From Labrys monachus (GTDB lineage Bacteria; Pseudomonadota; Alphaproteobacteria; Rhizobiales; Labraceae), in contig NZ_JAUSVK010000001.1 of NCBI RefSeq assembly GCF_030814655.1, positions 1,445,501-1,509,500 of the forward strand: DNA of 64,000 bases, in the 5' to 3' direction. Of this stretch, positions 7,542 to 24,298 are shown piece by piece. How positions within the stretch are numbered: position 1 is the first letter of the stretch; each line of letters begins with the position of its first letter. The notes under the pieces were generated by a model that saw nothing but the letters and a program-made list of their open reading frames with translations, was not told the origin of the DNA and did no database searches. The translations under genes were made by a program, and so were the position numbers.

Positions 7542-8408
7542 TCACGCCTTGCGATAGGTCGCAAGCCCGTAGGCTTCGATGGCGTTGAGGCCGAAGATCG
7601 CGTCCGTCTGCGTTGGCCCGAGATCGGCCAGGCAGGCTCGCAAGGCGGCGATGACCTGCTCGTAACGGCCGGCCACGAGGCAGACCGGCCAGTCGGTGCC
7701 GAACATGCAGCGGTCCCAGCCGAAGATGCGCAGGACTTCGGCGACATAGGGCCTGAGGTCGTCCGGCGACCAGTCGTGCCAATCCGCTTCGGTGATCATG
7801 CCCGACAATTTGCACCAGACATGATCGCGGCGGCCGGCAAAGCCGCCCATCAGCGCGGACCACGCCTCGAAGCCCCGGCCCTTGATGTCGGGCTTGGCGA
7901 TATGGTCGACCACGAAGCGAAGCTGCGGGAAGTCGGCGACGGTCTGGACCGCCGCCGCCAGTTGCGGCGGCTTGACGACGAGATCATAGACGAGCCCGGC
8001 CTCGGCCAGCGCGCCGAGGCCGCGGCGCACATCGTCCCGCAGCAGCCATTCGGGGTCCGGCTCGTCCTGGACGAGATGGCGGATGCCGACGAGCCAGCGT
8101 CCTGCGGGGCTCGCCTTCAACGCGGCGATCGTGCGGGCGACCTGCGCGTCGGTGAGGTCGACCCAACCGACGACGCCGGCCACGAAATCCGTCTTTTGCG
8201 CGATCTCGATATAGTCCCAGGTCTCGCCCAGATCGTTCCAGGTCTGCACGAGAACCGTGCCGTCGACACCGTTGGCCCGCAGCAGGGGCCGCAGGTCCTC
8301 CGGCGCGAAGACCCGGTTGATCGGCTCGAAGGGACCGTTCAGCCAGGGATAGTCGCCCGTCGCCGGATCCCAGAAGTGATGATGCGAGTCGATGACGGGA
8401 GACGCCAT
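7542..8408 (-). CDS. Amidohydrolase family 2 protein, probable aldonolactonase (L-fuconolactonase-like)
   Basis: A 288-residue TIM-barrel metal hydrolase of the Amidohydro_2 group. The metal motif is at the very start (VIDSHHHFWDP, HxH at about residues 8-10). Later come FVVDHIAKP and the FGTDWPV motif with its metal-binding Asp. L-fuconolactonase and L-rhamnono-gamma-lactonase belong to this group. It lies 54 bases downstream of an aldo/keto reductase in the same operon, an arrangement that fits a sugar dehydrogenase making a lactone and this enzyme opening it. The start at 8408 (MASPVIDSHHH) gives the family length. Function by homology class; substrate inferred. Confidence 0.8.
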   Translation of the reverse strand: MASPVIDSHHHFWDPATGDYPWLNGPFEPINRVFAPEDLRPLLRANGVDGTVLVQTWNDLGETWDYIEIAQKTDFVAGVVGWVDLTDAQVARTIAALKASPAGRWLVGIRHLVQDEPDPEWLLRDDVRRGLGALAEAGLVYDLVVKPPQLAAAVQTVADFPQLRFVVDHIAKPDIKGRGFEAWSALMGGFAGRRDHVWCKLSGMITEADWHDWSPDDLRPYVAEVLRIFGWDRCMFGTDWPVCLVAGRYEQVIAALRACLADLGPTQTDAIFGLNAIEAYGLATYRKA

Positions 8409-8462
8409 GGTCGGGATTCCCAACAAGATGGTTGAAGAGGAAGATGGAGTCCCGGCAGCGGC

Positions 8463-9449
8463 TTACCAGCGCTGGTGGACATAGGGCTTGATGTCCTGGT
8501 CGTAGATCGCCTTGAGTTCGGCCATCACGTCGGACGAAAGGGCGGGAAGCTCGGCCGCCTCGGCGTTGGACCGGGCTTGCGCCGGGTTGCGGGCGCCGGG
8601 GATGGCGACGGTGATCGCGTCGAACATCAGGATCCAGCGCAGCGCGAACTTCGCCATGGTGGTGTCGCCCCCGACGAGCGGACGGATGCGCTCGACCGCG
8701 GCCAGGCCCTTGTCGTAGGGCACGCCAGAGAAGGTCTCGCCGACATCGAAGGCTTCGCCGTGGCGGTTGAACTGGCGGTGGTCGGTGTCCTCGAACTTCG
8801 TGTCGGCCTTGAACTTGCCGGAGAGGAGGCCGCTCGCCAGCGGCACGCGGGCGATGAGCGCCGTGTTCTTCGCCCTGGCGAGATCGAACAGATGCTCGAT
8901 CGGGCGCTGCCGGAAGATGTTGAAGATGATCTGGATGCTGACGATGTTGGGATAGTCGAGGGCCTTCAGCGCTTCCTCGACGCGCTCGACGCTGACGCCG
9001 TAATTCCTGATCTTGCCTTGCTTGACCAGCGTGTCCAGGGCATCGAAGACCTCGGGACGGTAGTAGACGTCCGTCGACGGGCAGTGGAGCTGGACGAGGT
9101 CCAGCGCCTCGACGCCGAGATTGGTCAGGCTGCGGTCGACGAAGCCGGTGAGGTTGGCCAGCGTATAGCCGGCGGCGTCCTGCGTCGGCAGGCGCCGGCC
9201 CGCCTTGGTGGCGATGAAGGGCGGGGTGCCGCCACGCTCCTTGACGACACGGGCGATCAGCCGTTCGGAATGGCCGTCGCCATAGACGTCGGCTGTGTCG
9301 ATGAAGGTGACGCCGCGGTCGAGCGCCTCGTGCAGGGCGGCGAGCGCCTCGGCGTCGTCGACATGGCCCCAGCTTGCGCCGATGGCCCAGGCCCCGAAGC
9401 CGATTTCGCTCACCTGGCGACCGGTACGGCCGAATTCTCTGCTCCGCAT
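8463..9449 (-). CDS. Aldo/keto reductase, possible sugar dehydrogenase
   Basis: A 328-residue AKR barrel. The usual tetrad is visible: Asp in FIDTADVYGDG with Tyr at the expected place, Lys in FIATKAGRR, and His in LVQLHCPS. The C-terminal cofactor region reads VAIPGARNPAQARSNAEA. AKR members include L-fucose/D-threo-aldose dehydrogenases as well as YajO-like reductases. The start at 9449 follows a strong GAGGAGGAA site. An operator-like site lies 56 bases upstream (9505), and the divergent Liv-type importer starts at 9674. Together with the downstream lactonase it probably oxidises an aldose; that is inference from context. Confidence 0.82.
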   Translation of the reverse strand: MRSREFGRTGRQVSEIGFGAWAIGASWGHVDDAEALAALHEALDRGVTFIDTADVYGDGHSERLIARVVKERGGTPPFIATKAGRRLPTQDAAGYTLANLTGFVDRSLTNLGVEALDLVQLHCPSTDVYYRPEVFDALDTLVKQGKIRNYGVSVERVEEALKALDYPNIVSIQIIFNIFRQRPIEHLFDLARAKNTALIARVPLASGLLSGKFKADTKFEDTDHRQFNRHGEAFDVGETFSGVPYDKGLAAVERIRPLVGGDTTMAKFALRWILMFDAITVAIPGARNPAQARSNAEAAELPALSSDVMAELKAIYDQDIKPYVHQRW

Positions 9450-9504
9450 CTCACATTCCTCCTCTGGCCGGCGGCATGGGGCCGGCACTGCAATACAGGT
9501 AGGG

Positions 9505-9515
9505 TTATCATACAA
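9505..9515. promoter_or_regulatory. GntR-type operator (reductase side of the divergent promoter)
   Basis: TTATCATACAA differs from the core TTGTCATACAA by one base. It lies 56 bases before the aldo/keto reductase start and 105 bases from the palindrome at 9620, so one regulator could control both divergent operons. Confidence 0.6.
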
Positions 9516-9619
9516 GAGACTGCGGATGACAAGCCCGCGCGCCGATATCGGCCGAACGCGGGAGGCCTTCCGGCAGGCATGCCCGCTTGACAGGTCCAGC
9601 ATGCCGCACTATCAGAGAA

Positions 9620-9640
9620 CAGGGTTGTCATACAACCCTG
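9620..9640. promoter_or_regulatory. Perfect 21-base operator palindrome in front of the Liv/lar genes
   Basis: Nine-base arms (CAGGGTTGT and ACAACCCTG) flank a CAT spacer with no mismatch. The core TTGTCATACAA is shared with the other sites of the cluster. It lies 34 bases before the binding-protein ATG at 9674, a position where bound repressor would block RNA polymerase or elongation. It is the strongest copy of the motif in the window. Confidence 0.75.
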
Positions 9641-9673: not shown

Positions 9674-10891
9674 ATGGCCGTAGGGGTCAACAAGGCTGCT
9701 CTTCTCGCATTCGGACTGGGCGCGCTCGCGACGCCAGCCCTGGCGGACGATACCGGCAACACCGTCAAGATCGGCGTGGTCGCCGCCGAATCCGGCTCAT
9801 TCGTCTCGGCCGGGCATACGCTGCCGGCCGGCGTCAGCCTGGCGGTCAAGGAGATCAACGACGCCGGCGGCGTGAAGGTCGGCGACAAGACCTACAAGAT
9901 CGAGCTGGTCAAGCGCGACGACCGCACCGACATCGGAACGGCGGTCGCCGCGACGCAGGAACTGGTGCGCGACGTCGGCGTGAAGGCGATCTTCGGCTCC
10001 GAATCGCACGATTTCACCCTGGCGATGACCAAGATCACCCAGCCGGCCAAGGTGCTCCACTTCGCCGGCAACAGCACGCTCGACACCATCCTCACCGATG
10101 CGAGCGTGGCGCCCGGCGGGGCGGACCATTATCTGTTCCAGACCGAGCCGCGCGAGTTCCAGCGCAGCGGCAGCACGGCGCGCGGCGTCCTCTCTTTGCT
10201 GCAGCCGATGGTGGACCATCCGATCAAGAAATCGGTGATCATCGCCGGCAACGACGCGACCGGCCAGTTCCTGTCCTCCTACTACATCAAGGCGCTGAAG
10301 GCCGAGGGCCAGGAGGTGCCGGACATCATCTTCTATCCGCCCGATACCACCGATTTCTCGCCGATCCTGACGCGGGCCAAGAGCCTCAATCCCGACGTGG
10401 TGCATTTCTGGTACAACGGCGACTCCACGCTGACGGCCCTGCCGCAGGCGGTCGAACTCGGCGTGGCGCCCAGCTATTTCCTCTTCGGCGTCGATCCCGG
10501 CATCTGGAAGGAGCGCAGCCTCTCGGCCGACGTGCCGGTGGCGATGAGCTGCGTGCCCGTCTGCTGGGGCGAGTCCTCCAATCCGAAGGCGAAGGCCTAC
10601 TTCCAGAGCTATTTCGCCGCCGGCGCGCCCAAGGGCGTGACCTCCTCCGTCTCGCTGCTCTACTACGATTACGTCCATGTGCTCGCCGAGGCGTGGACCA
10701 AGGCCGGCAGCTTCGATCCGGATAAGGTCGTCGATGCCCTGATGACCCTCCACCACAAGGGCGTCGTCTCGGACGATCTGAGCTTCAATGCGCATCACCA
10801 GGTGACGCATGCGACCGAGGTCTGCGCCGCCAAGCCGGGCGGCGACATCACCTGCTCGATGCAGCAGCCGCCGGCGGACGCGCCGATGTGA
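9674..10891 (+). CDS. Branched-chain-type ABC importer binding protein (LivK/Peripla_BP_6)
   Basis: A 405-residue exported binding protein. Residues 1-24 form a Sec signal peptide (hydrophobic core, cleavage near ALADD). The body has the Leu/Ile/Val-binding-protein pattern KIGVVAAESG, GVSLAVKEINDAGGV and a DTTDFSPIL segment. Cysteines occur at VPVCWGE and near the C-terminus (EVCAAK, ITCSM). It is the first gene of the livKHMGF-like operon that runs up to larA. A GGGAGG site precedes the ATG. Members of this family also carry organic acids and aromatic compounds; here a 2-hydroxyacid or sugar acid is plausible from the neighbouring larA. Confidence 0.88.
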   Translation: MAVGVNKAALLAFGLGALATPALADDTGNTVKIGVVAAESGSFVSAGHTLPAGVSLAVKEINDAGGVKVGDKTYKIELVKRDDRTDIGTAVAATQELVRDVGVKAIFGSESHDFTLAMTKITQPAKVLHFAGNSTLDTILTDASVAPGGADHYLFQTEPREFQRSGSTARGVLSLLQPMVDHPIKKSVIIAGNDATGQFLSSYYIKALKAEGQEVPDIIFYPPDTTDFSPILTRAKSLNPDVVHFWYNGDSTLTALPQAVELGVAPSYFLFGVDPGIWKERSLSADVPVAMSCVPVCWGESSNPKAKAYFQSYFAAGAPKGVTSSVSLLYYDYVHVLAEAWTKAGSFDPDKVVDALMTLHHKGVVSDDLSFNAHHQVTHATEVCAAKPGGDITCSMQQPPADAPM

Positions 10892-10905
10892 GCCGGAATG
10901 GTGTT

Positions 10906-11050
10906 TCACCCTCCCCTCGATGGGGAGGGTCGACACGCAGTGTCGGGGTGGGGTGACTTCGCGAACGCGTTTCGCCCGTTCAAGAATCGTCGAGCTTCCT
11001 CACCCCACCCCGGCCTTTCAGGCCGACCCTCCCCCTCCAGGGGAGGGTGA
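10906..11050. repeat. Large compound inverted repeat between the binding protein and LivH genes
   Basis: Bases 10906-10956 and 11000-11050 are inverted copies of each other. Each copy itself contains a hairpin of the CACCCTCCCC/GGGGAGGGTG kind plus a GGGGTGGGGTGA block. Such intercistronic elements are found as dispersed repeats in Hyphomicrobiales. Here it would form a strong RNA structure that could protect the binding-protein mRNA or reduce expression of the downstream membrane genes. Confidence 0.8.
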
Positions 11051-11079
11051 TCTGAGTTTCATTCGACCGGAAGAGCGGC

Positions 11080-11949
11080 GTGGAAATCTTCATCCAGCAG
11101 ATCCTCAACGGATTATCGATCGCCAGCGTGATCACCCTGATCGCGGTCGGCGTCACCCTGATCTTCGGGCTCACCGGCATCATCAATTTCGCCCATGGCG
11201 AATTCCTGATGGTCGGCAGCATCGTCACCTGGCTCGCAGTCAGCAATGGCTGGGGCTTTCCGCTCGCGCTGTGCGCGGCCGTAGTCGTCGTCGCCGTGAT
11301 GGGATTCGCGCTGGAGCGAGGTCTCTTCCGATTCACGCTGGACCTTCCGACCAACGGCTTCATCGTCTCGCTCGGGCTGATCGTCGTGCTGCAGCACATC
11401 GTCATCCTATTCTGGAACGCCAACCAGAAGAGCATTCCCCATCCGCTGACGAAGGTATGGGAGGTCGGCGGCGTCCGCATCGCGGCCGTCAGGGCCATGG
11501 TCATCATCGTGACCGCCCTCGTCGTGACGCTGACCTTCTTCGTCATCACCCGCAGCCGCTACGGCCGTGCCCTGCGGGCCAGCGTCGAGGATCGCGACAC
11601 CGCCGCGCTGATGGGCATTCCCGTCCGCCGCTACATCACCGGCGTGTTCGTGTTCGGCAGCGCCCTGGCCGGCCTCGGCGGCGCGCTGCTGATCGCCCTG
11701 TTCCCGATCACGCCCTTCACCGGCGGCACCATCGTGATGAAGGGCTTCGCCGTCGCCCTGATCGGCGGCCTCGGCAATCTCACCGGTGCCGTCGCGGCAG
11801 GGCTGATCCTCGGCATCGTCGAAGGCTTCAGCGCCGGCTACGGCCTGTCGCAATGGACCGATGCCTATTCGTTCGCGCTGATGATCCTCGTGTTGCTCAT
11901 CCGGCCCCAGGGCCTGTTCGGCGGCACCAGCGGCCCGAGGATCACATGA
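11080..11949 (+). CDS. livH: Branched-chain-type ABC importer permease LivH
   Basis: A 289-residue LivH-type inner-membrane permease with about eight hydrophobic segments. It has the class hallmarks GVTLIFGLTGIINFAHGEF (quoted in part: GLTGIINFAHGEF) and GGLGNLTGAVAAG. The start is GTG at 11080 with an AAGAG site upstream. The stop codon overlaps the start of livM. It comes directly after the compound inverted repeat. Partner of LivM in forming the channel. Confidence 0.9.
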   Translation: MEIFIQQILNGLSIASVITLIAVGVTLIFGLTGIINFAHGEFLMVGSIVTWLAVSNGWGFPLALCAAVVVVAVMGFALERGLFRFTLDLPTNGFIVSLGLIVVLQHIVILFWNANQKSIPHPLTKVWEVGGVRIAAVRAMVIIVTALVVTLTFFVITRSRYGRALRASVEDRDTAALMGIPVRRYITGVFVFGSALAGLGGALLIALFPITPFTGGTIVMKGFAVALIGGLGNLTGAVAAGLILGIVEGFSAGYGLSQWTDAYSFALMILVLLIRPQGLFGGTSGPRIT

Positions 11950-12992
11950 CCGCCATGCGCCCTTCCGCCCCATCCCCGCAATCCCCGAGTGCCATGAAGA
12001 CGCCCTTCCGCACGATTCTGCCGACTTTGGTCGTGCTCGTCCTGTTGGCGACCGTTCCCTGGCTGTCGCCGACCAACCGCATCCTGTCGCTGGCGATCAC
12101 CGCCGGCATCAACATCGTCGCGCTCTACGGCCTCTCCGTGCTGTTCGGCCAGACCGGCATCCTGTCGATGGGTCATGCGGCCCTGATGGGTGCCGGCGCC
12201 TATGCCGCGACGATCCTGGCCCGGGACCTCGGCGTCGGCTTCTGGCTCGCCATTCCCCTGTCGGCGCTCGTCGCCGCCGCGATCGCCACGATCGTCGGCT
12301 TTCCGTCCCTGCGGGTCGGCGGGCATCATTTCGTCATCCTCACCTTCGCCTTCGGCCAGTTGCTCACCATCATCCTCACCAATGGCGGCGACTTCACCGG
12401 ACGGGCGACCGGCCTCGACCTGCAGGCGCCGCTGACCCTGTTCGGCATGGATCTCAGCCCGCTGCCGCGCTTCTATCTCCTGGTCCTCGGCTTCGTCGCC
12501 CTCAGCGCGGTCGCGAGCTGGGCGATCGTCCATTCGCGCTACGGGCGGACGCTGCGCGCCATCCGCGAGAACGAGAAGCTCGCCGCCTCGCTCGGCATCG
12601 ATGTCGGCCGGCACAAGATCGGCGCCTTCGTCGTCAGCGGGCTGTTCGCCGGGGTGTCGGGCGTGCTCCTGACCTATTTCCTCCGCCATATCTCGCCGAC
12701 GCAGTTTTCCTCCTTTCCCAGCATCTATCTCGCCTTGATGGTGATGATCGGCGGCGCCCGCCTGCTGCTGGGGCCGCTGGCCGGCGGCATCCTCGTCGCC
12801 TTCCTGCCGGAGATGTTCAATCTCGACCCCGTGGAATCGCGCATCCTCTACGGCGTATGCCTGATCGCGGTGATCCTCCTCCTGCCCAACGGCCTGATCG
12901 CCGGCCTGCTCGACGGGTGGAAGCGGCTGTTCGGGCGCAGGCCGGCGTCGAGCCCGGCTGCAGCCAGCCGATCCTCGGTGTCGGGAGGCTGA
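11946..12992 (+). CDS. livM: Branched-chain-type ABC importer permease LivM
   Basis: A 348-residue LivM-type permease with about ten membrane segments. It has the motifs GQTGILSMGHAALMG and GPLAGGILVAFLPE near the end. The ATG at 11946 overlaps the livH stop by four bases (ATGA), so translation is coupled. A second in-frame ATG 16 codons in is possible. The C-terminal tail after the last helix is Ala/Ser-rich. Confidence 0.9.
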   Translation: MTAMRPSAPSPQSPSAMKTPFRTILPTLVVLVLLATVPWLSPTNRILSLAITAGINIVALYGLSVLFGQTGILSMGHAALMGAGAYAATILARDLGVGFWLAIPLSALVAAAIATIVGFPSLRVGGHHFVILTFAFGQLLTIILTNGGDFTGRATGLDLQAPLTLFGMDLSPLPRFYLLVLGFVALSAVASWAIVHSRYGRTLRAIRENEKLAASLGIDVGRHKIGAFVVSGLFAGVSGVLLTYFLRHISPTQFSSFPSIYLALMVMIGGARLLLGPLAGGILVAFLPEMFNLDPVESRILYGVCLIAVILLLPNGLIAGLLDGWKRLFGRRPASSPAAASRSSVSGG

Positions 12993-12995
12993 GCC

Positions 12996-13718
12996 ATGGG
13001 CACATTGGAAATCAGCGGCCTCCGCAAGCAGTTCGGCGGCGTCGTCGCCCTCGCCGGCGTCGACCTGACTATCGAGGAGGGCGAGATCCTCGGCGTGGTC
13101 GGTCCCAACGGCTCCGGCAAGACCACGCTGTTCAACGTCATCACCGGCGTGCACAAGCCGACGGCCGGCCGCGTCACCTGGCGCGGCGCCGACATCACCG
13201 GCCTGGCGGCCCATGCCATCTCGCGCATCGGCATCGGCCATACCTTCCAGCAGGCGATGGCGTTCCCCGGGCTGAGCGTGTTCGAGAATGTGCAGATCGC
13301 GTCCGAGCATTGCCGCCACGCCCGCAACGAGGCCTATCCCTGGCCCTCGCCCGACGCGCTGCTGTCCTTCGTCGGGCTGCAGGACCTGCGCCGGGAGATC
13401 GCCGGCATCATGCCCTTCGGCAATCTGCGGCTGCTGGGACTGGCGCTCGCCCTGGCTTCGCGCCCGACGATGCTGCTGCTCGACGAGCCCGCCGCCGGCC
13501 TCAACGACAAGGAGACCGCCAAGCTCGTGGACCTGGTGAAGCAATTGCCGGGGCATGGCATCAGCGTCTGCGTCATCGACCACGACATGAACCTGATGCA
13601 GAGGCTGTGCCGGCGCCTCGTCGTGCTCGACTTCGGCAGCAAGATCGCCGACGGCCCCACGGCGGAGGTGCTGAACGACCCCAAGGTGCTCGAAGTCTAT
13701 CTTGGAGGGGCGCTCTGA
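12996..13718 (+). CDS. livG: Branched-chain-type ABC importer ATPase LivG
   Basis: A 240-residue ATPase. Walker A is GPNGSGKTT (about 35-43) and Walker B is MLLLDEPAAGLND. The ABC signature is unusual, reading MPFGNLRLLGLALAL where LPYGxQRRLEIARAL is normal, so the Gly is kept but the Gln-Arg part is lost. It starts three bases after livM and its last base overlaps livF. It pairs with LivF on the cytoplasmic side of the importer. Confidence 0.88.
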   Translation: MGTLEISGLRKQFGGVVALAGVDLTIEEGEILGVVGPNGSGKTTLFNVITGVHKPTAGRVTWRGADITGLAAHAISRIGIGHTFQQAMAFPGLSVFENVQIASEHCRHARNEAYPWPSPDALLSFVGLQDLRREIAGIMPFGNLRLLGLALALASRPTMLLLDEPAAGLNDKETAKLVDLVKQLPGHGISVCVIDHDMNLMQRLCRRLVVLDFGSKIADGPTAEVLNDPKVLEVYLGGAL

Positions 13719-14443
13719 TGCTTCTGGAGGTTTCCGGCATCACCACCGGCTACGGGCCGACCATCGTCAACCGCGGCGTTTCGCTCACGCTCGGCGCCGG
13801 CGAGGTCGCGACCATCCTCGGCCCGAACGGCGCGGGCAAGAGCACGCTGCTGCGCACCATCGCGGGCCTGGTCAAACCGAGGGCGGGCACCGTCCGCTTC
13901 GGCGGCAGCGACGCCACCGGACAGCCGCCGGACGTGATGGCCAAGCGCGGGGTCGTGCTCGTGCCGGAGGGTCGCCGCATCTTCGGGGACATGACGGTGG
14001 AGGAGAATCTGCGCCTCGGCGCCTATGCCAGGCGTGACAGCGCCGCCGTCGATGCCGACGTGACGCTGATGGAGAACTTCTTCCCGATCCTCGCCACCAA
14101 GCGGCGCGACAAGGGCGGCTCCCTCAGCGGCGGGCAGCAGCAGATGCTGGCGATCGCCCGCGGCCTGATGGCGCGGCCGCGCGTCCTCCTGCTCGACGAG
14201 CCCTCGCTTGGCCTGTCGCCGCTGCTGGTCAAGGAGATCCAGGCGATCATCCTGTCGATCGGCGAGCGCTTCGGCGCCTCGGTGCTGCTCGTCGAGCAGA
14301 ATGCGGGCCTCGCTCTGTCGGTGGCGACGCGCGGCTACCTCATGCAGACGGGACAGATCGTCACATCCGGGCCGATCGAGGAACTGCGCGACATGTCGCT
14401 GATGCGCGAACTCTATCTCGGCGGCGCGGCCGTGGCTTCCTGA
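13718..14443 (+). CDS. livF: Branched-chain-type ABC importer ATPase LivF
   Basis: A 241-residue ATPase with Walker A GPNGAGKST (about 36-44), signature LSGGQQQMLAIARGL and Walker B VLLLDEPSLGLSP. Unlike its partner LivG the signature is canonical. The ATG lies inside the end of livG (TGATG junction). It closes the five-gene importer; larA follows after 260 bases on the same strand and may be read from the same transcript. Confidence 0.9.
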   Translation: MLLEVSGITTGYGPTIVNRGVSLTLGAGEVATILGPNGAGKSTLLRTIAGLVKPRAGTVRFGGSDATGQPPDVMAKRGVVLVPEGRRIFGDMTVEENLRLGAYARRDSAAVDADVTLMENFFPILATKRRDKGGSLSGGQQQMLAIARGLMARPRVLLLDEPSLGLSPLLVKEIQAIILSIGERFGASVLLVEQNAGLALSVATRGYLMQTGQIVTSGPIEELRDMSLMRELYLGGAAVAS

Positions 14444-14679: not shown

Positions 14680-14703
14680 TGTGTTGAAGGAGCGGTGCCT
14701 GCG

Positions 14704-15996
14704 ATGACATCCGGCGATATTGCGGTCTCCTATGGGCGCGGCCATCTCGACGTGCGTTTGCCGGCTTCGGCGGAAGCGACGGTCATCCGCAAGCAGCCGC
14801 TGCCGAAGATCGCGGATCCCCACGCGGCGCTGATGCAGGCGCTCGACCAGCCGATCGATGCGCCGTCGCTGGCCGAGCTGAGCAGGGGGCGGACGAGCGC
14901 CTGCATCCTCATCTGCGACATCACCCGGCCCGTGCCCAACCGCCTTTTCCTGCGTCCGATGATCGAGACGATGGTGGCGGCCGGCATTGCGCTCGACCGC
15001 ATCCGCATCCTGGTGGCGACGGGCCTGCACCGGCCGAATCTCGGCGAGGAACTGGCCGAACTCGTCGGCGATCCCTGGGTGCTGGCGAATGTGCGCATCG
15101 ACAACCACGACGCCCGCAACGACGACGACCATGTCGATTTCGGCCGGACCAGCACCCGCGGCACGCCCGTCAAGATCGACCGGCGCTTCGTCGAGGCGGA
15201 TCTGCGCATCGCCACCGGGCTGGTCGAGCCGCATTTCATGGCGGGCTGGTCGGGCGGGCGCAAGGTCGTCGCCCCCGGCGTCGCCCATCACGAGACCATC
15301 CGCACCTTCCACTCGGCGCGCTTCATGGAAGACCCGCTGGCGGTGCAGTGCAACCTCGTCGGCAACCCGCTGCACGAGGAGCAGCTCCAGATCGTCGGCA
15401 TGGTCGGCGAGATCTACGGCCTGAACACCGTCCTCGACGAGGAGCGCGACCTCGTCTGCATCACCTTCGGCGAGATCATCGCCAGCCACGCCGCCGCCGT
15501 CGACTTCGTCAGCAACGTCACCCGCGTCCCGGTGCCGCGCAAGTTCAGCACGGTGGTGACGTCCTCCGCCGGCTATCCCCTGGACAAGACCTACTACCAG
15601 ACCATCAAGGGCATGGTGACGCCGCTCGACATCCTCGAGCCCGGCGGCACGCTGATCATGGTATCGGAGTGCTCGGAAGGCTTCGGCTCGCCCGAATTCC
15701 GCGATGCGCAGACCCGCCTGGTCGAGCTGGGGCCGGAGCGCTTCCTTGCCACGCTGACGGCCAAGACGCTGGCCGAGATCGACGAATGGCAGACGGAGAT
15801 GCAGCTCAAATCGCTGCGCATCGGCCGCGTCGAGCTCTATTCGTCGGGCCTCGACGCGCATGACAAGGCCATCACCGGCGTCGAGACGATCAGCGATCTC
15901 GACGCCGCCATCGCTGCCAGCATCGAGCGGTCGAATGACGGCGCGGTGGCGGTGATCCCCGAAGGACCCTATGTCATCCCCTACCATGCGCCGTGA
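14704..15996 (+). CDS. larA: Nickel-pincer-dependent 2-hydroxyacid racemase/epimerase (LarA family)
   Basis: A 430-residue LarA homologue. The residues that hold the nickel-pincer nucleotide and do catalysis in Lactobacillus LarA (His108, His174, Lys184, His200) are matched by His109 (TGLHRP), His177, Lys187 (HFMAGWSGGRK) and His203 (TFH), with the same 10- and 16-residue spacings from Lys. Asp72 and Arg75 (DITRP) are also present. The protein should therefore be active. LarA homologues act on lactate, malate and other 2-hydroxyacids, so the substrate is open. ATG 14704 is preferred over GTG 14695 because the GAAGGAG site is too close to the GTG. Its 3' end overlaps the convergent regulator by 23 bases. 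Confidence 0.9.
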   Translation: MTSGDIAVSYGRGHLDVRLPASAEATVIRKQPLPKIADPHAALMQALDQPIDAPSLAELSRGRTSACILICDITRPVPNRLFLRPMIETMVAAGIALDRIRILVATGLHRPNLGEELAELVGDPWVLANVRIDNHDARNDDDHVDFGRTSTRGTPVKIDRRFVEADLRIATGLVEPHFMAGWSGGRKVVAPGVAHHETIRTFHSARFMEDPLAVQCNLVGNPLHEEQLQIVGMVGEIYGLNTVLDEERDLVCITFGEIIASHAAAVDFVSNVTRVPVPRKFSTVVTSSAGYPLDKTYYQTIKGMVTPLDILEPGGTLIMVSECSEGFGSPEFRDAQTRLVELGPERFLATLTAKTLAEIDEWQTEMQLKSLRIGRVELYSSGLDAHDKAITGVETISDLDAAIAASIERSNDGAVAVIPEGPYVIPYHAP

Positions 15997-16750: not shown

Positions 16751-17031
16751 GGACAGGTGAGCCTGGGCGAGGAATCCGGCGGCAAGGATCGCATGGCGCC
16801 CGGACCGGCGCAAGCAAGGGGCGGGCATCGCCGGGCGTGCCGCTGGCCGATGGCGTCGGCTGCTTTTCGCGCGACTTTATCGGGGGCGAGGGCAGGGAGC
16901 GCCTCGTCACGGCTCCCCGTCCGCCCCATATGACGGTGCCGTCGGGGCCGGACATCGAATCGCTTCTGCCGGCGGAGCGATGTGCGGGCCTTGCTCCGGC
17001 ACCGGGACGAACGATCTGGAGAGAGCCGATC

Positions 17032-18330
17032 ATGGAACTGCATCTCGACCTGGTCGGCGGCCTTGCGGGCGACATGTTCGTCGCTGCGATGCTGGACCTG
17101 TTTCCCGACCTCGAACCCGCGGTGCAGCGCGGCATCGCCGCGAGCGGCTTGCCGTCCGACGTCGCATGCCGCCTTGTCCGCCATGACGACGGCGTCCTGG
17201 TCGGCCGGCGCTTCGTCGTGGAGCGAACCGGCGGCGAGGCGGCGGCCGGTCCGGTCCAGGCCGTTCTCCACGAGGCCGGCCACTCGCACGAGCCCCACGA
17301 CCATCATCATCACCACGCTCCGGGCGAGGATCGTCACCGGCCCGCCGCGGCGCGTGCGCATCATCACGTCGCCTGGCGGCAGATCCGCGACATGCTGGCC
17401 GCCTCGCCGCTCGACCCGCCGGTCCGCGCCGCCGCGATCGGCATGTTCGCGCTGCTCGCCGACGCCGAGGGCGCCGTGCACGGCGTCGACCCGGATGCGG
17501 TCACCTTCCACGAGGTCGGCGCCTGGGACTCGATCGCCGATATCGTCGGCGCCGCCGTGATCGTCGCCGCGGTCGGGGCGCGGCGCTGGACGGTGGGGGC
17601 CGTCCCCCTCGGCTCCGGCCGGGTGGAGATGGCGCATGGATCCCTGCCGGTGCCGGCGCCGGCGACGGCGCGCCTCCTCACGGGCTTCGCCGTGATCGAC
17701 GACGGCGTGCCGGGCGAGAGGGTGACGCCGACCGGCGCAGCGATCCTGCGCTATCTGTGCGGCGACGCCGCCCCCGTCGCCGGCGCCAGGATCCTCGGGC
17801 GTTCGGGTGTCGGCTTCGGCACGCGGTGCCTGCCCGGGCTCAGCAATTGCGTGCGCGTGCTCGCTTTCGGGGACATGCCGGCATCGGCGGCGACGGATGA
17901 GGTCGCGGTGATCGAATTCGAGATCGACGACGCCTCCGGCGAGGAGCTGGCGCGCGGGCTCGACTTCATCCGGGCGCATGCGGCGGTGCATGATGCGATC
18001 CAGGCACCCGTCTTCGGCAAAAAGGGCCGCATGATGACGCATGTGCGCGTCCTGGCCGAGCCGGCGGCGCTCGAGGAGATCGTGGCGCTCTGCTTCCGGG
18101 AAACCACGACGATCGGGCTGCGCCACGCGGTGCAGCGGCGGGCCGTGCTGCCGCGACAGGCGCGGCGCGTCGCCGTGGGGGCGCATGCGATCGGGGTGAA
18201 GATCGTCGAGCGCGGCGATGTGCGAACGGCCAAGGCCGAGGCCGACGACGTCGCCTCGGTGGCGGGCCATGCGGGGCGGGCGGCGCTGCGCCATGCCGCC
18301 GAACGCTCGGCCCTGGAGAACGACGCATGA
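17032..18330 (+). CDS. larC: Nickel insertase LarC (pincer cofactor biosynthesis)
   Basis: A 432-residue LarC homologue. LarC inserts nickel into the pyridinium-3,5-bisthiocarboxylic acid mononucleotide in a CTP-dependent reaction. The start reads MELHLDLVGGLAGDMFVAAM, the family signature. A histidine-rich loop with a run of five His after the His at residue 84 (about 79-110) is a likely nickel store. In several bacteria LarC is made from two frames by ribosomal frameshifting; here it is a single uninterrupted frame. The ATG follows GGAGAGA. It starts the larC-larE-larB operon, with four-base overlaps between genes. Confidence 0.93.
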   Translation: MELHLDLVGGLAGDMFVAAMLDLFPDLEPAVQRGIAASGLPSDVACRLVRHDDGVLVGRRFVVERTGGEAAAGPVQAVLHEAGHSHEPHDHHHHHAPGEDRHRPAAARAHHHVAWRQIRDMLAASPLDPPVRAAAIGMFALLADAEGAVHGVDPDAVTFHEVGAWDSIADIVGAAVIVAAVGARRWTVGAVPLGSGRVEMAHGSLPVPAPATARLLTGFAVIDDGVPGERVTPTGAAILRYLCGDAAPVAGARILGRSGVGFGTRCLPGLSNCVRVLAFGDMPASAATDEVAVIEFEIDDASGEELARGLDFIRAHAAVHDAIQAPVFGKKGRMMTHVRVLAEPAALEEIVALCFRETTTIGLRHAVQRRAVLPRQARRVAVGAHAIGVKIVERGDVRTAKAEADDVASVAGHAGRAALRHAAERSALENDA

Positions 18331-19136
18331 CCGACAGCCTCGAACGTCTCGAAGCCATCCTGCCTGGCCTGGGGAGCGTTGCCATTGCTCTCAGCGGCGG
18401 CGTCGACAGCATGACGCTCGCCACGGTCGCCCATCGCCTGCTCGGCCGCGACCGCGTGAGGATGATGCATGCGGTGTCGCCCGCCGTCCCGCCGCCGGCG
18501 ACGGCGCGCGTACGGGAGATCGCGGCGGCCGAAGCCTGGGACCTGCAGATCCTCGACGCCGGCGAATTCGCGGATCCGCGCTATCGCGCCAATCCCTATA
18601 ACCGCTGCTTCTTCTGCAAGACCAATCTCTACGGCGCCATCGCCGGCCGGACCGACCGGCAGGTCCTCTCCGGCACCAATGTCGACGATCTCGGCGAATA
18701 CCGGCCCGGCCTCCAAGCGGCGCGCGAGCACGGCGTGCGCCATCCCTTCGTCGAGGCGGACATGCGCAAGGCCGATGTGCGGGCCGCGGCACGCCGGCTC
18801 GGTCTCGGTGCCGTCGCCGAACTGCCGGCCTCGCCCTGCCTGTCGAGCCGGGTCGAGACCGGCATACCGATCGATCCGGCGACGCTGGTCTTCGCCCACG
18901 AAGTCGAGCAATTCGTGACGGCCGAGATTGCCCCCGCGACGGTGCGCTGCCGCGTGCGGCCTTCTGCCGTGGTCGTCGAGCTCGACCGGGAAAGCCTCGA
19001 CGCCATGGCCTCCGAGGCCCGTCGCGCGATGGAGGAGGCGATCGGCGCCATGCGGCCGGCGGCGACGCGGGGGCTGCCCGTCACCTTCGCCGCCTACCGG
19101 ACCGGCAGCGCCTTCGTCGATCGGAGCCGGCCATGA
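18327..19136 (+). CDS. larE: Sulfur transferase LarE (pincer cofactor biosynthesis)
   Basis: A 269-residue PP-loop ATPase with SGGVDS at 23-28. LarE adds sulfur to the dicarboxylated nicotinate nucleotide, giving the thiocarboxylates that bind nickel. Cys171 in SPCLSSR matches the position of the sacrificial cysteine in Lactobacillus LarE. Two further cysteines, Cys94 and Cys97 (NRCFFCK), give a three-cysteine set like that of LarE proteins that carry an iron-sulfur cluster. The ATG overlaps the larC stop by four bases and the stop overlaps larB by four. Confidence 0.93.
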   Translation: MTDSLERLEAILPGLGSVAIALSGGVDSMTLATVAHRLLGRDRVRMMHAVSPAVPPPATARVREIAAAEAWDLQILDAGEFADPRYRANPYNRCFFCKTNLYGAIAGRTDRQVLSGTNVDDLGEYRPGLQAAREHGVRHPFVEADMRKADVRAAARRLGLGAVAELPASPCLSSRVETGIPIDPATLVFAHEVEQFVTAEIAPATVRCRVRPSAVVVELDRESLDAMASEARRAMEEAIGAMRPAATRGLPVTFAAYRTGSAFVDRSRP

Positions 19137-19819
19137 GGGAGACGATCGCAAGCGAGGAGATCAGGCTCGACTTCCAGCGGGCGGCCCGCATCGGGCTGCC
19201 CGAGGCGATCTACTGCACCGGCAAGTCGCCCGCCCAGATCGACGCCATCCTGGCGATGGCGGCGGACAAGGGCCGGGGGCTGCTGCTGACCCGCCTCGAT
19301 CCGGCGAAGCGGGCACAATTGCGGCCCGAGCACGGAGCGGCGATCGATTATTGCCCGGTTTCGGGCACCGGCTTCTTCGGTCCCCTGCCGCCGGAGCAGG
19401 GCGGGGCAGCCGTCGCCATCATCGCGGCGGGAACCTCCGACGTGCCGGTCGCCCGGGAGGCCCAGCGCGTGCTGCGCCATGCCGGGCGGGCGTCGAACTT
19501 CATCGCCGATGTCGGCGTGGCCGGCCTGTGGCGGCTGACCGAAAGACTGGAGGAGATCCGGGCGCACGCCGTCGTCATCGTCGTCGCCGGCATGGACGCG
19601 GCGCTGGCCAGCGTGGTCGGCGGCCTCGTCCCCGGCATCGTCGTCTGCGTGCCGACCTCCGTGGGCTATGGCGTGGCGGAAGGCGGGCACACGGCGCTGA
19701 ACGCCATGCTGGCGAGCTGCGCCCCCGGCATCACCGTCTGCAATATCGACAATGGCTATGGCGCGGCCTGCGCCGCCATCCGCGCCCTCGACAGCATCGA
19801 GATGCAGCGGAGGGCGTGA
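19133..19819 (+). CDS. larB: Carboxylase/hydrolase LarB (pincer cofactor biosynthesis)
   Basis: A 228-residue LarB, a member of the PurE (AIR carboxylase) family. LarB carboxylates C5 of the nicotinate ring of NaAD and hydrolyses the dinucleotide, the first cofactor step. Visible motifs are AAGTSDVPVAREA (about 98-110), VVAGMDAALASVVGGL and VPTSVGYG. The long N-terminal part before the PurE-like core is normal for LarB. It is the last gene of larCEB. An IS element begins 36 bases after its stop, so any further downstream gene may have been cut off. Confidence 0.93.
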   Translation: MRETIASEEIRLDFQRAARIGLPEAIYCTGKSPAQIDAILAMAADKGRGLLLTRLDPAKRAQLRPEHGAAIDYCPVSGTGFFGPLPPEQGGAAVAIIAAGTSDVPVAREAQRVLRHAGRASNFIADVGVAGLWRLTERLEEIRAHAVVIVVAGMDAALASVVGGLVPGIVVCVPTSVGYGVAEGGHTALNAMLASCAPGITVCNIDNGYGAACAAIRALDSIEMQRRA

Positions 19820-21236: not shown

Positions 21237-22085
21237 CTATGGCGCGGCGACCGTGACCTGCTGCTGCTCGCCGAGGCCTTCGATGCCGAGGCGGATGGTC
21301 TGGCCCGGCTTGAGGAAGACCGGTTCCGGCTTGATGCCCATGCCGACGCCGGGCGGCGTGCCCGTGGAGATGACGTCGCCCGGCTGCAGGCTCATGAATT
21401 GCGAGATGTAGGAGACGAGATGGGCGACCGGGAAGATCATGGTGCGGCTCGAGCCGTCCTGGCGCTTGATGCCGTCGACGGTCAGCCACATCGCCAGCTT
21501 CTGCGGATCGGCGACCTCGTCGCGCGTCACCAGCCAGGGCCCGATGGGGCCGAAGCTGTCGGCCGACTTGCCCTTGGTCCACTGGCCGCCGCGCTCGGCC
21601 TGGAAGGCGCGCTCGGACACGTCGTTGATCACGCAATAGCCGGCGACATGGTTCATCGCGTCGGCCTCGCTGACATAGCGGGCCTCCTCGCCGATGACGA
21701 CGCCGAGTTCGACCTCCCAATCCGTCTTCTGCGAATTGCGGGGGATGATGACCGGATCGTTCGGGCCGGTGATGGCGCTTGTCGCCTTCATGAACAGGAT
21801 CGGCTCCGCCGGAATGGCTGCGCCGGTTTCCGCCGCGTGGTCGGCATAATTGAGGCCGACGCAGATGAACTTGCCGACGCGGGCGACGCAGGGGCCGATG
21901 CGCTGGCCTTCCGGCAGGAGCGGCAGGGAGCCGACCTCGATCGCGGCGATCCTTGCGAGTCCGGCCGGGGTCAGCCATTCGCCGGCGAGCTCGCCGACAT
22001 GGGCGGAGAGGTCGCGGACCCCTCCCTTCGAATCGAGGATGGCGGTCTTTTCGGCGCCCTTGGCGCCATAGCGCAGAAGTTTCAT
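21237..22085 (-). CDS. Fumarylacetoacetate hydrolase family protein, possible 2,4-diketo-3-deoxy-sugar-acid hydrolase
   Basis: A 282-residue FAH-family enzyme, last gene of a three-gene operon. The metal ligands are seen as Glu124 and Glu126 (DWEVELGVVIG) and Asp155 (CVINDVSERA). The N-terminus MKLLRYGAKGAEK and the pattern NYADHAAETG, EPILFMKATSAI and STGTPPGVGMG match the group that includes 2,4-didehydro-3-deoxy-L-rhamnonate (and -fuconate) hydrolases, often mislabelled ureidoglycolate lyase. Those enzymes give pyruvate and L-lactate. Its start overlaps the GntR stop by four bases. Exact substrate is inferred. Confidence 0.85.
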   Translation of the reverse strand: MKLLRYGAKGAEKTAILDSKGGVRDLSAHVGELAGEWLTPAGLARIAAIEVGSLPLLPEGQRIGPCVARVGKFICVGLNYADHAAETGAAIPAEPILFMKATSAITGPNDPVIIPRNSQKTDWEVELGVVIGEEARYVSEADAMNHVAGYCVINDVSERAFQAERGGQWTKGKSADSFGPIGPWLVTRDEVADPQKLAMWLTVDGIKRQDGSSRTMIFPVAHLVSYISQFMSLQPGDVISTGTPPGVGMGIKPEPVFLKPGQTIRLGIEGLGEQQQVTVAAP

Positions 22086-22849
22086 CGGTCTTGCTCTTCA
22101 GGAAGGGGAGGGGGAGGAGAAGTCCGGCCGCCGGGGGCCGGCTCGACGGGCAGGCCGACGCGGCGGGTGGCCGCCTCGATATGGCTCTGCATGGCGCGCC
22201 GCGCCTCGCCATCGTCGCCGGCGGCGATGGCGTCGAGGATGCGCTGGTGCTCGGCGAGCGTCGTCTGCGCCATGTCGTCCGAGCGGAGGCGGTGCCCGGC
22301 GGCGAGGATGCTCTCGCGGATCCGCTCCGAGATGAAGACCAGGAACTGAACCATATAGCTGTTGCGCGTGGCGGCGGCGATGACGCGGTGGAACTCGAGA
22401 TCCGTCTTGAGCCAGGTCACGCTGCCATAGGGGGCCTCGCACATGGTGGCGAGCGTCTGCCGCATCAGTTCGAGATCCTGCCCGGTGCGCCGCGCCGCGG
22501 CGAGCGCCGCCGCCTGGGCTTCGAGGATGCCGCGCAGTTCGAACAGGCCGCGGAAGGCGTCGGCCTGCTGCAGCGAGGCGCTGTCGATGGTGAGGACGGT
22601 GGAATCGGAGGCTTCCGATACGAAGGCGCCGCGGCCCTGCTGGGACCACACCCGCCCTTCGGAGCGCAGGCGCGATATCGCTTCGCGCACGACGTTGCGG
22701 CTGACGCCGAAGGTCTGCGACAATTCCTGCTCGGTCGGCAGCTTGTCCCCCGGCTTCAGACGGCCCTGCGCGATTTCCCGCGAGATGGAACTCGCCACCA
22801 GGGCCGGCAGATGGGGACCGCGACTGACCTTGTCGAGCTTCAGCACCAT
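22082..22849 (-). CDS. FadR-family GntR transcriptional regulator
   Basis: A 255-residue GntR/FCD regulator. The wHTH reads LPTEQELSQTFGVSRNVV (about 37-54), and the FCD domain has DLEFHRVIA and NSYMVQF. It is a close paralogue of the regulator at 1615-2364. It lies in the middle of the FAD-dehydrogenase/FAH operon, three bases after the first gene. The C-terminal tail is Pro-rich and differs from the paralogue. It is a good candidate for the factor that binds the TTGTCATACAA sites, including the one in its own promoter at 24348. Confidence 0.92.
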   Translation of the reverse strand: MVLKLDKVSRGPHLPALVASSISREIAQGRLKPGDKLPTEQELSQTFGVSRNVVREAISRLRSEGRVWSQQGRGAFVSEASDSTVLTIDSASLQQADAFRGLFELRGILEAQAAALAAARRTGQDLELMRQTLATMCEAPYGSVTWLKTDLEFHRVIAAATRNSYMVQFLVFISERIRESILAAGHRLRSDDMAQTTLAEHQRILDAIAAGDDGEARRAMQSHIEAATRRVGLPVEPAPGGRTSPPPPLPEEQDR

Positions 22850-22852
22850 GGC

Positions 22853-24298
22853 CTATTCGTCCGAAGCGCCGGGAAGGGACGGAAAAATCCGGCCGCTGCT
22901 GAGAAGATGGCCGGGATCCAGCACGTTTTTCAGCCGCATGGCAAGGTCGAGAGCGACGGGATCCGCCCGTTCGACGAAAGCCTTCTGCTTGACCCTGCCG
23001 ATGCCGTGTTCGGCGCTGATGCTGCCGCCGAGGCGGTCGACGACATCGAAGATCAGGGCTTCGGCGCCATGGAAGAGATCCTCGGTCTGCTGCAGCGAGA
23101 GGTCCGCCGGCGGAATCACGTTCATGTGGACGTTGCCGTCGCCGACATGGCCATAGGCCAGGGCGAGCGCCTCGGGATAGCGCCCCCGCACCGCGGCGAC
23201 GCCCTGGTCGACCAGTTCGGCCAGCCGTGAAATCGGTACGGACACGTCGGTGCGCAGGTAGCGCCGGCCATTGCCCTGCCTTTCGACCATTGTCTCCCGG
23301 AAGAGCCACAGCCTGTCCGCCTGCGCCTTGCCGGAGGCCATCACCGCGTCGGCCACGAGGTCGTCCGCCTCGGCGAGGCAGCCCTCCAGCAGGGCGCGCA
23401 GGTCGACGCGTCCGGCGGCCGAGGTCTCGATCAGCACATAGACGGGGTAGGGCGCATCCATGGGATCGGTGAAGTCCGGCCGGGCCCTGAGCGCGACCTC
23501 GATGCCCTCGCGCAGGATGAGCTCGAAGGCGGTGAGCAGGTCGCTGCACTCGCGCCGGGCGCGCGCGAACAGCAGCATCGCATCCTCGACCGAGCGCAGG
23601 CCGACCAGCGCCACCTCGACCTGCGTCGGCTTCGGGAACAGCTTCAGCGAGGCGGCGGTGACGATGCCGAGCGTCCCCTCGCTGCCGATGAAGAGCTGCT
23701 TGAGGTCATAGCCGCGATTGTCCTTGCGCAGGACCTTGAGGCCATTCCAGATGCGCCCGTCCGCCAGCACGACTTCCAGCCCGAGCACGAGGTCGCGCGT
23801 CATGCCGTAGCGCAGGACGTTGAAGCCGCCGGCATTGGTGGCGACGTTGCCGCCGATGCGGCAGCTGCCCTGGGCGCCGAAGGTGATCGGCAGCACGCAG
23901 TCGTGCTTCTCGGCCGCGTGCTTGGCGTCCTCCAGGATGCAGCCGGCCTCGACCACCATGGCGAAATCGATAGGGCTCACGGAACGCACGGCATTCATGC
24001 GCTCCAGGCTGACGACGAGTTCGCCGCCGCCCGGCGCGGCCACCGCGGCGCCCACCAGTCCCGTCAGCCCGCCCTGCGGGACGAGGGGGATGCGCTCCTG
24101 CCGGCAGTGGCGGACCAGCGCTGCCACATCCTCGGCCGTTCGCGGGCGAGCCACGGCGAGAGGACGGCTCACATGGTCTCCCGACCAGTCCCGGCTGTAG
24201 CGCTCGAGGTCGCCTTCGGCGGTGAGCAGGAAATCACCGGGAAAGGCCTCGGCCAGCTTGGCGAGGGCCTTGAGGGACTGCGGGGACGCGACGTTCAT
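22853..24298 (-). CDS. FAD-linked 2-hydroxyacid dehydrogenase (D-lactate dehydrogenase/GlcD type)
   Basis: A 481-residue flavoprotein. The FAD_binding_4 domain includes PLVPQGGLTGLVGAAV and SCRIGGNVATNAGG (about 60-160), and the FAD-oxidase C-terminal domain includes YGHVGDGNVHMN and SAEHGIGRVK. Relatives oxidise D-lactate, glycolate or D-2-hydroxyglutarate and pass electrons to quinone or cytochrome. It is the first gene of the operon with GntR and FAH. Start at ATG 24298; no strong ribosome site is seen, and an in-frame TTG at 24358 would overlap the operator. A D-specific enzyme beside LarA suggests oxidation of the epimerised hydroxyacid. Confidence 0.85.
   Translation of the reverse strand: MNVASPQSLKALAKLAEAFPGDFLLTAEGDLERYSRDWSGDHVSRPLAVARPRTAEDVAALVRHCRQERIPLVPQGGLTGLVGAAVAAPGGGELVVSLERMNAVRSVSPIDFAMVVEAGCILEDAKHAAEKHDCVLPITFGAQGSCRIGGNVATNAGGFNVLRYGMTRDLVLGLEVVLADGRIWNGLKVLRKDNRGYDLKQLFIGSEGTLGIVTAASLKLFPKPTQVEVALVGLRSVEDAMLLFARARRECSDLLTAFELILREGIEVALRARPDFTDPMDAPYPVYVLIETSAAGRVDLRALLEGCLAEADDLVADAVMASGKAQADRLWLFRETMVERQGNGRRYLRTDVSVPISRLAELVDQGVAAVRGRYPEALALAYGHVGDGNVHMNVIPPADLSLQQTEDLFHGAEALIFDVVDRLGGSISAEHGIGRVKQKAFVERADPVALDLAMRLKNVLDPGHLLSSGRIFPSLPGASDE

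Follow-up and report, generated by a model that had tools for sequence, protein, structure and literature searches.

What does a nickel-pincer racemase do among genes for the uptake and oxidation of sugars? The question is raised by a stretch of 64,000 nucleotides from Labrys monachus (the window; G000:C1:1445501-1509500 of a 6.92 Mb one-contig genome) that encodes LarA, a 2-hydroxyacid racemase. From left to right its genes are those for a HIBADH-family dehydrogenase, the regulator GntR1, an Rbs-type sugar ABC transporter, a lactonase-like amidohydrolase, an aldo/keto reductase (AKR), a Liv-type ABC transporter and LarA; then come GntR2, LarC, LarE, LarB, a DDE transposase remnant, an FAH-family hydrolase, GntR3, an FAD-linked D-2-hydroxyacid dehydrogenase (FADDH), an MFS gene and a LysR gene. 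A preliminary description of this DNA had named the AKR, the amidohydrolase, FAH, LarA with its cofactor set and FADDH: all are present with clear scores and at coordinates that are right within the choice of start codon, but the list omitted the Rbs and Liv transporters and the three GntR-type regulators of the unit. The cluster is real, conserved and, by its operators, co-regulated. We propose – with belief and doubt in equal measure – that it is a GntR-controlled regulon for the oxidative breakdown of an L-fucose-configured sugar (of the L-fucose, L-galactose or D-arabinose class), in which LarA would invert the three-carbon acid released by FAH.

A scan of genome contigs gave 350 relatives of LarA, of which the best 80 were kept for comparison of loci. 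With a cluster defined as a locus that has three or more of 12 non-Lar markers, each at an identity of at least 55%, the cluster is present at 18 of the 80 loci; the hosts are mainly Rhizobium, Phyllobacterium, Kaistia and other Rhizobiales. At the marker level the other 62 loci yielded GntR2 once and FAH once (HIBADH, which is not a marker, was also seen once). Counted at 40% identity, the 18 clusters contain LivH, LivM, LivG and LivF in 18, LivJ and HIBADH in 17, LarB, LarC, LarE and GntR2 in 16, FADDH, a short-chain dehydrogenase/reductase (SDR) and RbsC1 in 15, AKR, the amidohydrolase and glyoxalase I (GloA) in 14, a second AKR (AKR2) in 13 and FAH in 11: these are lower bounds, several loci ending at a contig end or at the 10 kb flank. 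The order in relatives is AKR2-lactonase-AKR / LivJHMGF-LarA / GntR2 / HIBADH-LarCEB / FAH-SDR-GntR-FADDH / GloA / Rbs / GMC oxidoreductase; FAH, SDR, GntR and FADDH are immediate neighbours on the same strand at 10 of these 18 loci, and SDR-GntR-FADDH at four more. Relative to this order the copy in the window is without SDR, GloA and AKR2, has HIBADH at its far end, and carries the transposase remnant between LarB and FAH. Because 18 of 80 LarA loci hold the same neighbours and share operators, the arrangement goes beyond chance.

LarA is the only Lar_N match in the window's genome, and none was found at E 1e-30 in four other genomes of the same genus: either this lineage has therefore acquired the unit, or its kin have lost it. 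The nearest LarA sequences come from Inquilinus limosus and from a record labelled Mycobacterium sp. KBS0706. Among plasmid records LarA occurs at 60-80% in seven and FADDH at 60-80% in seven, with both in five; plasmid pSK01 of R. leguminosarum bv. viciae carries the gene types of the relatives' cluster order. In the class-wide sample a FADDH ortholog (E 1e-150) was found in one of 385 genomes, the window's own, and LarA (E 1e-100) in 22 of 385. Since this is too sparse for a test of co-occurrence, the family of genome G005 was used instead: among its 394 genomes FADDH orthologs occur in seven, LarA in eight and both in six (Fisher 4e-11), a figure that, the genes being linked, is no independent test.

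The operons of the unit share a 13-bp palindrome, GTTRTCRTACAAC, which stands before RbsB, AKR, LivJ and FADDH. The four sites in the window are GTTGTCATACAAC at 7253..7265 (- strand, no mismatch) before the Rbs operon, GTTATCATACAAG at 9504..9516 (+ strand, one mismatch) before the AKR-lactonase operon, GTTGTCATACAAC at 9624..9636 (+ strand) before the Liv operon and GTTATCATACAAC at 24347..24359 (+ strand) before the FADDH-GntR-FAH operon: a mean of 0.01 sites is expected, and none of 100 shuffles reached four. The site is conserved. With up to one mismatch allowed, every LivJ head (17) and every FADDH head (14) that could be tested among the 18 relatives has it, and so do 4 of 4 LivJ, 10 of 10 FADDH and 10 of 10 RbsB heads in 12 extension loci (six from genomes already among the 18, some showing one gene via overlapping stretches of the same genome). 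Exact sites number 34 in 363,339 bases of cluster loci compared to none in 1,028,082 bases of the 62 other loci; at one mismatch the numbers are 38 and two. We take the palindrome to be an operator of the GntR/FadR type. Because it is common to the Liv-LarA, sugar uptake, sugar oxidation and FADDH-FAH operons, LarA appears to belong to a sugar regulon. One of the GntR regulators presumably binds it, with regulator 3, encoded within the FADDH operon, as the candidate. Before HIBADH-larCEB there is only a weak half-match, at 504, in the window, and no operator in any of 17 relatives examined. Just 5' of larA lies an inverted repeat, TGAAAC-N8-GTTTCA, at 14656-14675 (one match compared to 0.06 expected), which is possibly a private larA operator; predicted RNA structure upstream of larA was unconvincing (z -1.77).

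The residues of LarA (14695..15996, + strand; Lar_N and LarA_C) place it in the superfamily of NPN-dependent 2-hydroxyacid racemases. The catalytic D72, H108, H174 and K298 and the cofactor-binding R75, K184 and H200 are all present, in the window and at 80 of 80 loci, and larB, larC and larE are adjacent. The pocket reads F, M, W, Q in the window, in the 18 clusters and at 61 of the 62 other loci (first position F in 80 of 80, second M in 79 of 80), and it fits the short-chain aliphatic group (SAR, group 2), which is defined by Leu-Met or Phe-Met after H174 together with a bulky hydrophobic pocket. Against the model for nickel-dependent lactate racemase (NF033504) LarA scores 336.7 bits, under the cut-off of 460. 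Its best solved relative is 9eid (345 bits), titled a broad-substrate spectrum LarA, which we take to be LarAIp. That enzyme, with the pocket L, M, W, Q, is best on L-lactate and 2-hydroxybutyrate and next on L-glycerate; among substituents of like size a polar group lowers its activity (PMC11851776, in part). The window's LarA thus has the same catalytic and cofactor residues and three of the four pocket positions of LarAIp and its group (PMC7583248, PMC11851776), differing in Phe for Leu after the second catalytic histidine and in its context of sugar oxidation. Lactate racemases usually have F, F, W, E/Q, whereas gluconate epimerases have E, V, A, H (PMC11770544), a pattern that LarA does not share with the D-gluconate 2-epimerase GntE. 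The pocket fits short 2-hydroxyacids, judged by its residues: both lactate and glycerate are suitable, and the pocket does not separate the two.

FADDH (22853..24358, - strand, start likely near 24298) has as its closest solved relatives 3pm9 (370 bits) and human D-2-hydroxyglutarate dehydrogenase (296 bits), with glycolate oxidase and D-lactate dehydrogenases lower (157-167 bits). It keeps the five catalytic and metal residues general to D-2-hydroxyacid dehydrogenases (Arg386, His434, His441, Glu475 and His476; residue numbers, here and below, come from motifs and counting rather than from a structural alignment). All 25 cluster rows, with some genes represented twice, have the side-chain pocket V390, R401, Y432, N443 of the window's enzyme, and none of 13 paralogs from three genomes does. 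In most D-lactate dehydrogenases, yeast DLD2 and DLD3 excepted, residue 390 is large and hydrophobic, 401 and 432 are small and 443 is hydrophobic (PMC7801405, in part), and FADDH does not show this GlcD/LDHD-type pocket. With the human enzyme and its relatives, as described in the available part of the same source, FADDH shares the five residues, Tyr432 and Asn443, differing in Val390 and Arg401 for Thr and Lys; the human enzyme has moderate activity on D-lactate. A pocket of this kind favours a polar D-2-hydroxyacid as substrate, or a broad specificity, and argues against an enzyme dedicated to D-lactate. A relative of FADDH at 49% in Sinorhizobium lies beside a D-erythronate dehydrogenase and another FAH: on S. 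meliloti pB (L175 5870-9523) GntR and FAH come after it, denD is a neighbour, an operator-like site (one mismatch) precedes it and a TRAP transporter is present, as in a sister module.

Is a route encoded that would deliver such an acid? FAH (21237..22085, - strand) is of the 2,4-diketo-3-deoxy-L-rhamnonate/L-fuconate type: its best solved relative is L-2,4-diketo-3-deoxyrhamnonate hydrolase (8gsr, 310 bits), and it scores 420.5 bits over 280 of 284 positions of NF053535 (cut-off 500). The amidohydrolase (7542..8426, - strand; Amidohydro_2, E 1.4e-52) resembles L-fuconolactonase (solved relative 4dlf, E 2.1e-37; 203 bits with the NCBIfam L-fucono-1,5-lactonase model, cut-off 400). The AKR (8463..9602, - strand, start likely near 9449; best solved relative IolS, 113 bits) is a candidate aldose 1-dehydrogenase, and an AKR of COG0667 is known as a D-arabinose/L-fucose/L-galactose dehydrogenase (PMC6336799, in part).

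The SDR of 15 of the 18 relatives' clusters bears on the steps between. Its solved relatives are human DHRS6 (2ag5, 314 bits), then 8y11 and 8xwk (292 bits). The last two, titled only SDR family oxidoreductase, we take for the L-2-keto-3-deoxyfuconate 4-dehydrogenase (L-KDFDH) of Herbaspirillum. Arg148, Thr183, Arg192 and Arg214 are kept in 28 of 28 SDR rows, and Trp252 in 25, the match stopping short of it in the other three (the rows include duplicate entries for some genes, and five come from outside the LarA cluster). All 11 pocket residues of L-KDFDH, as defined in PMC11199699 (in part), are present in 25 of the 28, the window genome's own copy included, and the three truncated matches are short of the last of these positions alone; Trp252 contacts the C6 methyl group according to the same part of that source. 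Judged by this signature, L-rhamnose is disfavoured as the sugar. The window genome's copy lies at 4036402-4037133 (L092 6402-7133), is 61% identical and has the full signature; its sugar locus also holds an enolase-superfamily gene and, by eye, an apparent RhaM-type mutarotase. Within the window itself the relatives' SDR gives no tblastn match, and no dehydratase was found among the cluster genes scanned, in agreement with the preliminary description, which had seen neither a dehydratase nor a 2-keto-3-deoxy-acid dehydrogenase there. The window's cluster thus differs from a non-phosphorylating L-fucose pathway with dehydratase and 2-keto-3-deoxy-fuconate (KDF) dehydrogenase inside the cluster, and candidates for both lie elsewhere in the genome. 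That for the dehydratase, near 2.499 Mb (L151 4938-6212), is 79% identical to a relative's protein; we presume it to be FucD-like from its N-terminal motif, and no NCBIfam model matches the relative's protein above cut-off. Every step thus has a candidate gene in the genome, two of them unlinked to the cluster, and the sequence evidence supports a diketo-type sugar-acid route, as first suggested.

Enolase-superfamily genes occur in 12 of 12 genomes searched. The window's genome has 18 matches, 15 of them in stretches taken (L091, L092, L151-L161) and three, at 5402459 (just outside L162), 5234769 and 3988898, not among these. A search of the flanking DNA for a dehydratase, as had been recommended, did find such a gene 3 kb to the left (L091 ~13604-14779); its best matches are gluconate/galactonate dehydratase models, below cut-off, and it lies beside uronate-type genes, so that it is not counted as the missing step. 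Its surroundings (L091, G000:C1:1428001-1445700, from 11676-17698 on to window 1-411) hold a GMC oxidoreductase, the enolase-superfamily dehydratase, a second HIBADH-like gene, a uronate-dehydrogenase-like gene of the epimerase family and a GntR regulator, and look like a uronate or hexonate cluster. In R. leguminosarum an enolase-type gene beside AKR2 was likewise rejected as the dehydratase: its own GntR and transporter adjoin it, and no operator at up to one mismatch is near.

The pathway that we propose would run as follows. The sugar would be taken up by the Rbs transporter and oxidised by AKR to a lactone, which the lactonase would open; a dehydratase and a 2-keto-3-deoxy-fuconate dehydrogenase (candidates elsewhere in the genome, the dehydrogenase inside the cluster in 15 of 18 relatives) would act next, and hydrolysis by FAH would give pyruvate and a three-carbon L-2-hydroxyacid. 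Using the nickel-pincer cofactor that LarB, LarC and LarE provide, LarA would then invert L-lactate (from a 6-deoxy sugar such as L-fucose) or L-glycerate (from L-galactose) to the D form, to be consumed by D-specific enzymes: FADDH here, and glycerate 2-kinase in some relatives.

Several observations weigh against this reading. The operator pattern was derived from the same sites in which it was counted, so that the counts speak of conservation and are no independent test; the safeguards are the shuffle control and the near-empty background of the other loci. Enolase-gene stretches (27 loci, 356,566 bases, including G005, G008 and G011) hold no operator at zero or one mismatch. LarA lies 251 bases behind LivF in the window, whereas they overlap or abut in relatives, L011 among them: that the window's LarA shares the Liv operator is therefore something we infer from relatives, and a promoter of its own is possible. 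FAH, the lactonase and LarA all score under their NCBIfam equivalog cut-offs. All 12 genomes searched have FMN_dh genes, and the best in the window's genome, a 364-residue piece scoring 325 bits with the L-lactate dehydrogenase model (cut-off 376), is LldD-like, so that L-lactate need not pass through LarA. Nor is the linkage of LarA to the sugar genes strict. Genome G676 keeps FAH, SDR, FADDH, Liv and Rbs without LarA, LarB, LarC and LarE there, its LarA (67% identical) lying 2.9 Mb off behind a glycerate 2-kinase; G462, with FADDH and Rbs, gave no LarA at E 1e-30; in G783 LarA and FADDH are present but SDR and FAH are not, and LivF was the only Liv gene seen; and the stretch compared from Mesorhizobium ciceri, that of pMc1192 and not the chromosome, keeps Rbs, GloA, FADDH, Liv and AKR without LarA, SDR, FAH and lactonase.

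Which acid, then, would LarA invert? The context evidence is split: we give lactate and glycerate roughly the same likelihood, and both may be handled by the unit. If the sugar is L-fucose or L-rhamnose, FAH would release L-lactate, LarA would turn it into D-lactate and FADDH would oxidise this to pyruvate. This is the ending given in the preliminary description, whose logic is right in outline: the pocket for a short 2-hydroxyacid and the operator that the Liv-LarA operon has in common with the sugar genes support it, whereas lactate as the acid is possible but not established; we consider this exact version doubtful. The conserved Trp252 of SDR, the preference of LarAIp for L-lactate and 2-hydroxybutyrate and the moderate D-lactate activity of the human relative of FADDH agree with it. 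So does GloA (157.9 bits, NCBIfam cut-off 120), which faces FADDH across the operator in 14 of 18 clusters and at 7 of 7 FADDH loci of one family: the glyoxalase I pathway usually ends in D-lactate. LutA and LutB are found near LarA at four of the 62 other loci (L044, L052, L056 and L064, ~6-7 kb upstream), a lactate-type context within the same LarA subfamily; however, these four rows form one clade apart from the cluster LarAs in the tree, the FADDH pocket is unlike that of most D-lactate dehydrogenases, the LldD-like enzyme could oxidise L-lactate directly, and the fuconate-type SDR speaks against L-rhamnose. Equally doubtful, in our view, is the corresponding account for glycerate, in which an L-galactose-like sugar would give L-glycerate at FAH, LarA would make D-glycerate, and FADDH, the HIBADH enzyme or glycerate 2-kinase would consume it. 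A mammalian L-fucose route is cited as turning L-galactose into glycerate (a reference title in PMC13406643), and the polar FADDH pocket is in keeping with such an acid. Glycerate kinases are near LarA at 9 of the 62 non-cluster loci and at none of 20 controls (a weak background, these being enolase-centred stretches of two genomes), and a glycerate 2-kinase stands directly behind the GMC gene, which faces an operator, in three of the 10 cluster stretches that show GMC (L096, L097 and R. leguminosarum pSK01). Yet the 18 cluster loci and their flanks contain no glycerate kinase, nor do the other seven of the 10 longer stretches. The LarA tree, in which bootstrap is not fully settled, places the cluster LarAs in a 28-row clade (support 100/96) with eight out-of-cluster rows: L010, L016, L022 and L172 have a glycerate kinase, but L003 (a 3.4 kb contig), L005, L019 and L024 are without either marker set as far as detected, and the remaining glycerate-kinase rows are scattered over the tree. 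6-deoxy substrates are indicated by Trp252 and by the likeness of FAH to LRA6, HIBADH scores under every NCBIfam cut-off, and a polar group lowers the activity of LarAIp.

A different view is that the Liv transporter, LarA and FADDH form a separate module for external racemic 2-hydroxyacids, which would have its regulator in common with the sugar genes and would not process the sugar product. LarA comes immediately after LivF in L011 and other relatives, LarAs of the SAR type take branched 2-hydroxyacids, and the M. ciceri stretch (Liv and FADDH) and G783 (LarA and FADDH) both lack SDR and FAH. But FADDH stands in line with SDR and FAH at 10 of 18 loci and with SDR at four more, M. ciceri keeps Liv without LarA, and the common operator also heads the sugar operons; we think this view improbable, though worth keeping in sight. 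Far less credible still is the alternative offered in the preliminary description, that LarA epimerises C2 of an aldonate such as L-fuconate. Aldonate-forming enzymes are present in the cluster and D-gluconate 2-epimerases exist in the LarA superfamily, but an aldonate substrate is unlikely because the pocket is F, M, W, Q and not the usual E, V, A, H of those epimerases.

Two further loci with glycerate kinases were observed. On R. ruizarguesonis pRlX3 (L172 14001-19331) the run larA-larC-larE-larB-glycerate kinase lies beside BKACE, lactonase and thiolase genes: it is a candidate glycerate-racemase operon in a deoxy-sugar-acid pathway, and its gene set resembles deoxyribonate routes through glycerate (PMC6365646, in part). 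In G676 (L133 8783-14012) glycerate 2-kinase-LarA-LarC-LarE-LarB lies beside genes that, by eye, resemble those of galactarate or uronate catabolism.

The remaining genes of the window are arranged as follows. The HIBADH-family gene (539..1525, + strand, start likely near 605; Pfam NAD_binding_2/NAD_binding_11) lies between GntR2 and larC in relatives, 17 of the 18 clusters having a gene 66-79% identical. GntR/FCD regulator 1 (1615..2391, - strand) ends the Rbs operon, and regulator 3 (22082..22849, - strand) overlaps FAH by four bases; the GntR of relatives matches the two about equally (best match eight and eight). Regulator 2 (15974..16828, - strand, as an open reading frame) matches NCBIfam models of the LldR, NanR and GlcC types, all below cut-off. 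The Rbs transporter (2435..7297, - strand; Pfam) consists of a permease (2435-3406), an ATPase (3431-4942), a second permease (4939-5982) and a binding protein (6080-7297, start likely near 7168; best solved relative 2rjo, 397 bits). The Liv transporter (9674..14443, + strand) comprises LivJ (9674-10891), for which a search of solved structures gave no informative relative, LivH (11080-11949), LivM (~11994-12992), LivG (12996-13718) and LivF (~13718-14443). Among the cofactor genes, all on the + strand, LarC (16837..18330, start likely near 17032) scores 175.5 bits for LarC1 and 102.9 for LarC2, LarE (18327..19136) 253.7 bits with TIGR00268 and LarB (19133..19819) 250.4 bits with NF033503, all above cut-off; LarE is without a Pfam match. 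A DDE_3-type transposase remnant at 19868-20341 separates larB from FAH, where in relatives larB is followed by FAH and SDR, and may mark a rearrangement of the window's copy. Scans of the window with Rfam (gathering scores) and for tRNAs gave no matches.

How does the unit compare with known systems? With route 3 of the non-phosphorylating L-fucose pathway (FucA, FucB, FucC, FucF, FucG), which ends in pyruvate and L-lactate, it shares genes of the lactonase-like, KDF-dehydrogenase (in relatives; a second copy in the genome) and FAH types (PMC11199699, the part available); unlike that route it adds LarA, LarB, LarC, LarE, the Liv transporter, FADDH and HIBADH, and no dehydratase was found in the window's cluster. 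RhaR regulons with lldD or lldEFG (Rodionova 2013, PMC3870299) likewise extend a sugar pathway by oxidation of lactate to pyruvate, but use L-lactate dehydrogenases and a phosphorylating pathway, and no racemase is named in the available part of that paper. The proximity of LarA to COG0277 dehydrogenases is known in general (PMC7583248), as is that of an L-fucose ABC transporter to lactonase and dehydratase genes (PMC11378808, in part). Among the open-access papers listed we found none that joins lactate racemase with a diketo sugar route, which is a weak negative; co-mentions with L-fucose concern, by their titles, lactobacilli and gut growth. The in vivo roles of LarA homologs have been called an important remaining question (PMC7583248), and the physiological significance of two lactate-racemase homologs was left to in vivo work (PMC11770544).

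More broadly, and with somewhat more doubt than we attach to the regulon itself, the GntR regulon may be carried on chromosomes and rhizobial megaplasmids of aerobes that oxidise an L-sugar of the fucose/galactose class, with LarA as the obligatory step from L to D and glycerate racemisation as the ancestral activity of the subfamily. The conserved operator ties LarA to genes of sugar uptake and oxidation, and its role can be tested in named, cultivable rhizobia. If the proposal is true, LarA would have a physiological role inside sugar catabolism, and the catabolism of L-sugars in these strains would depend on nickel.

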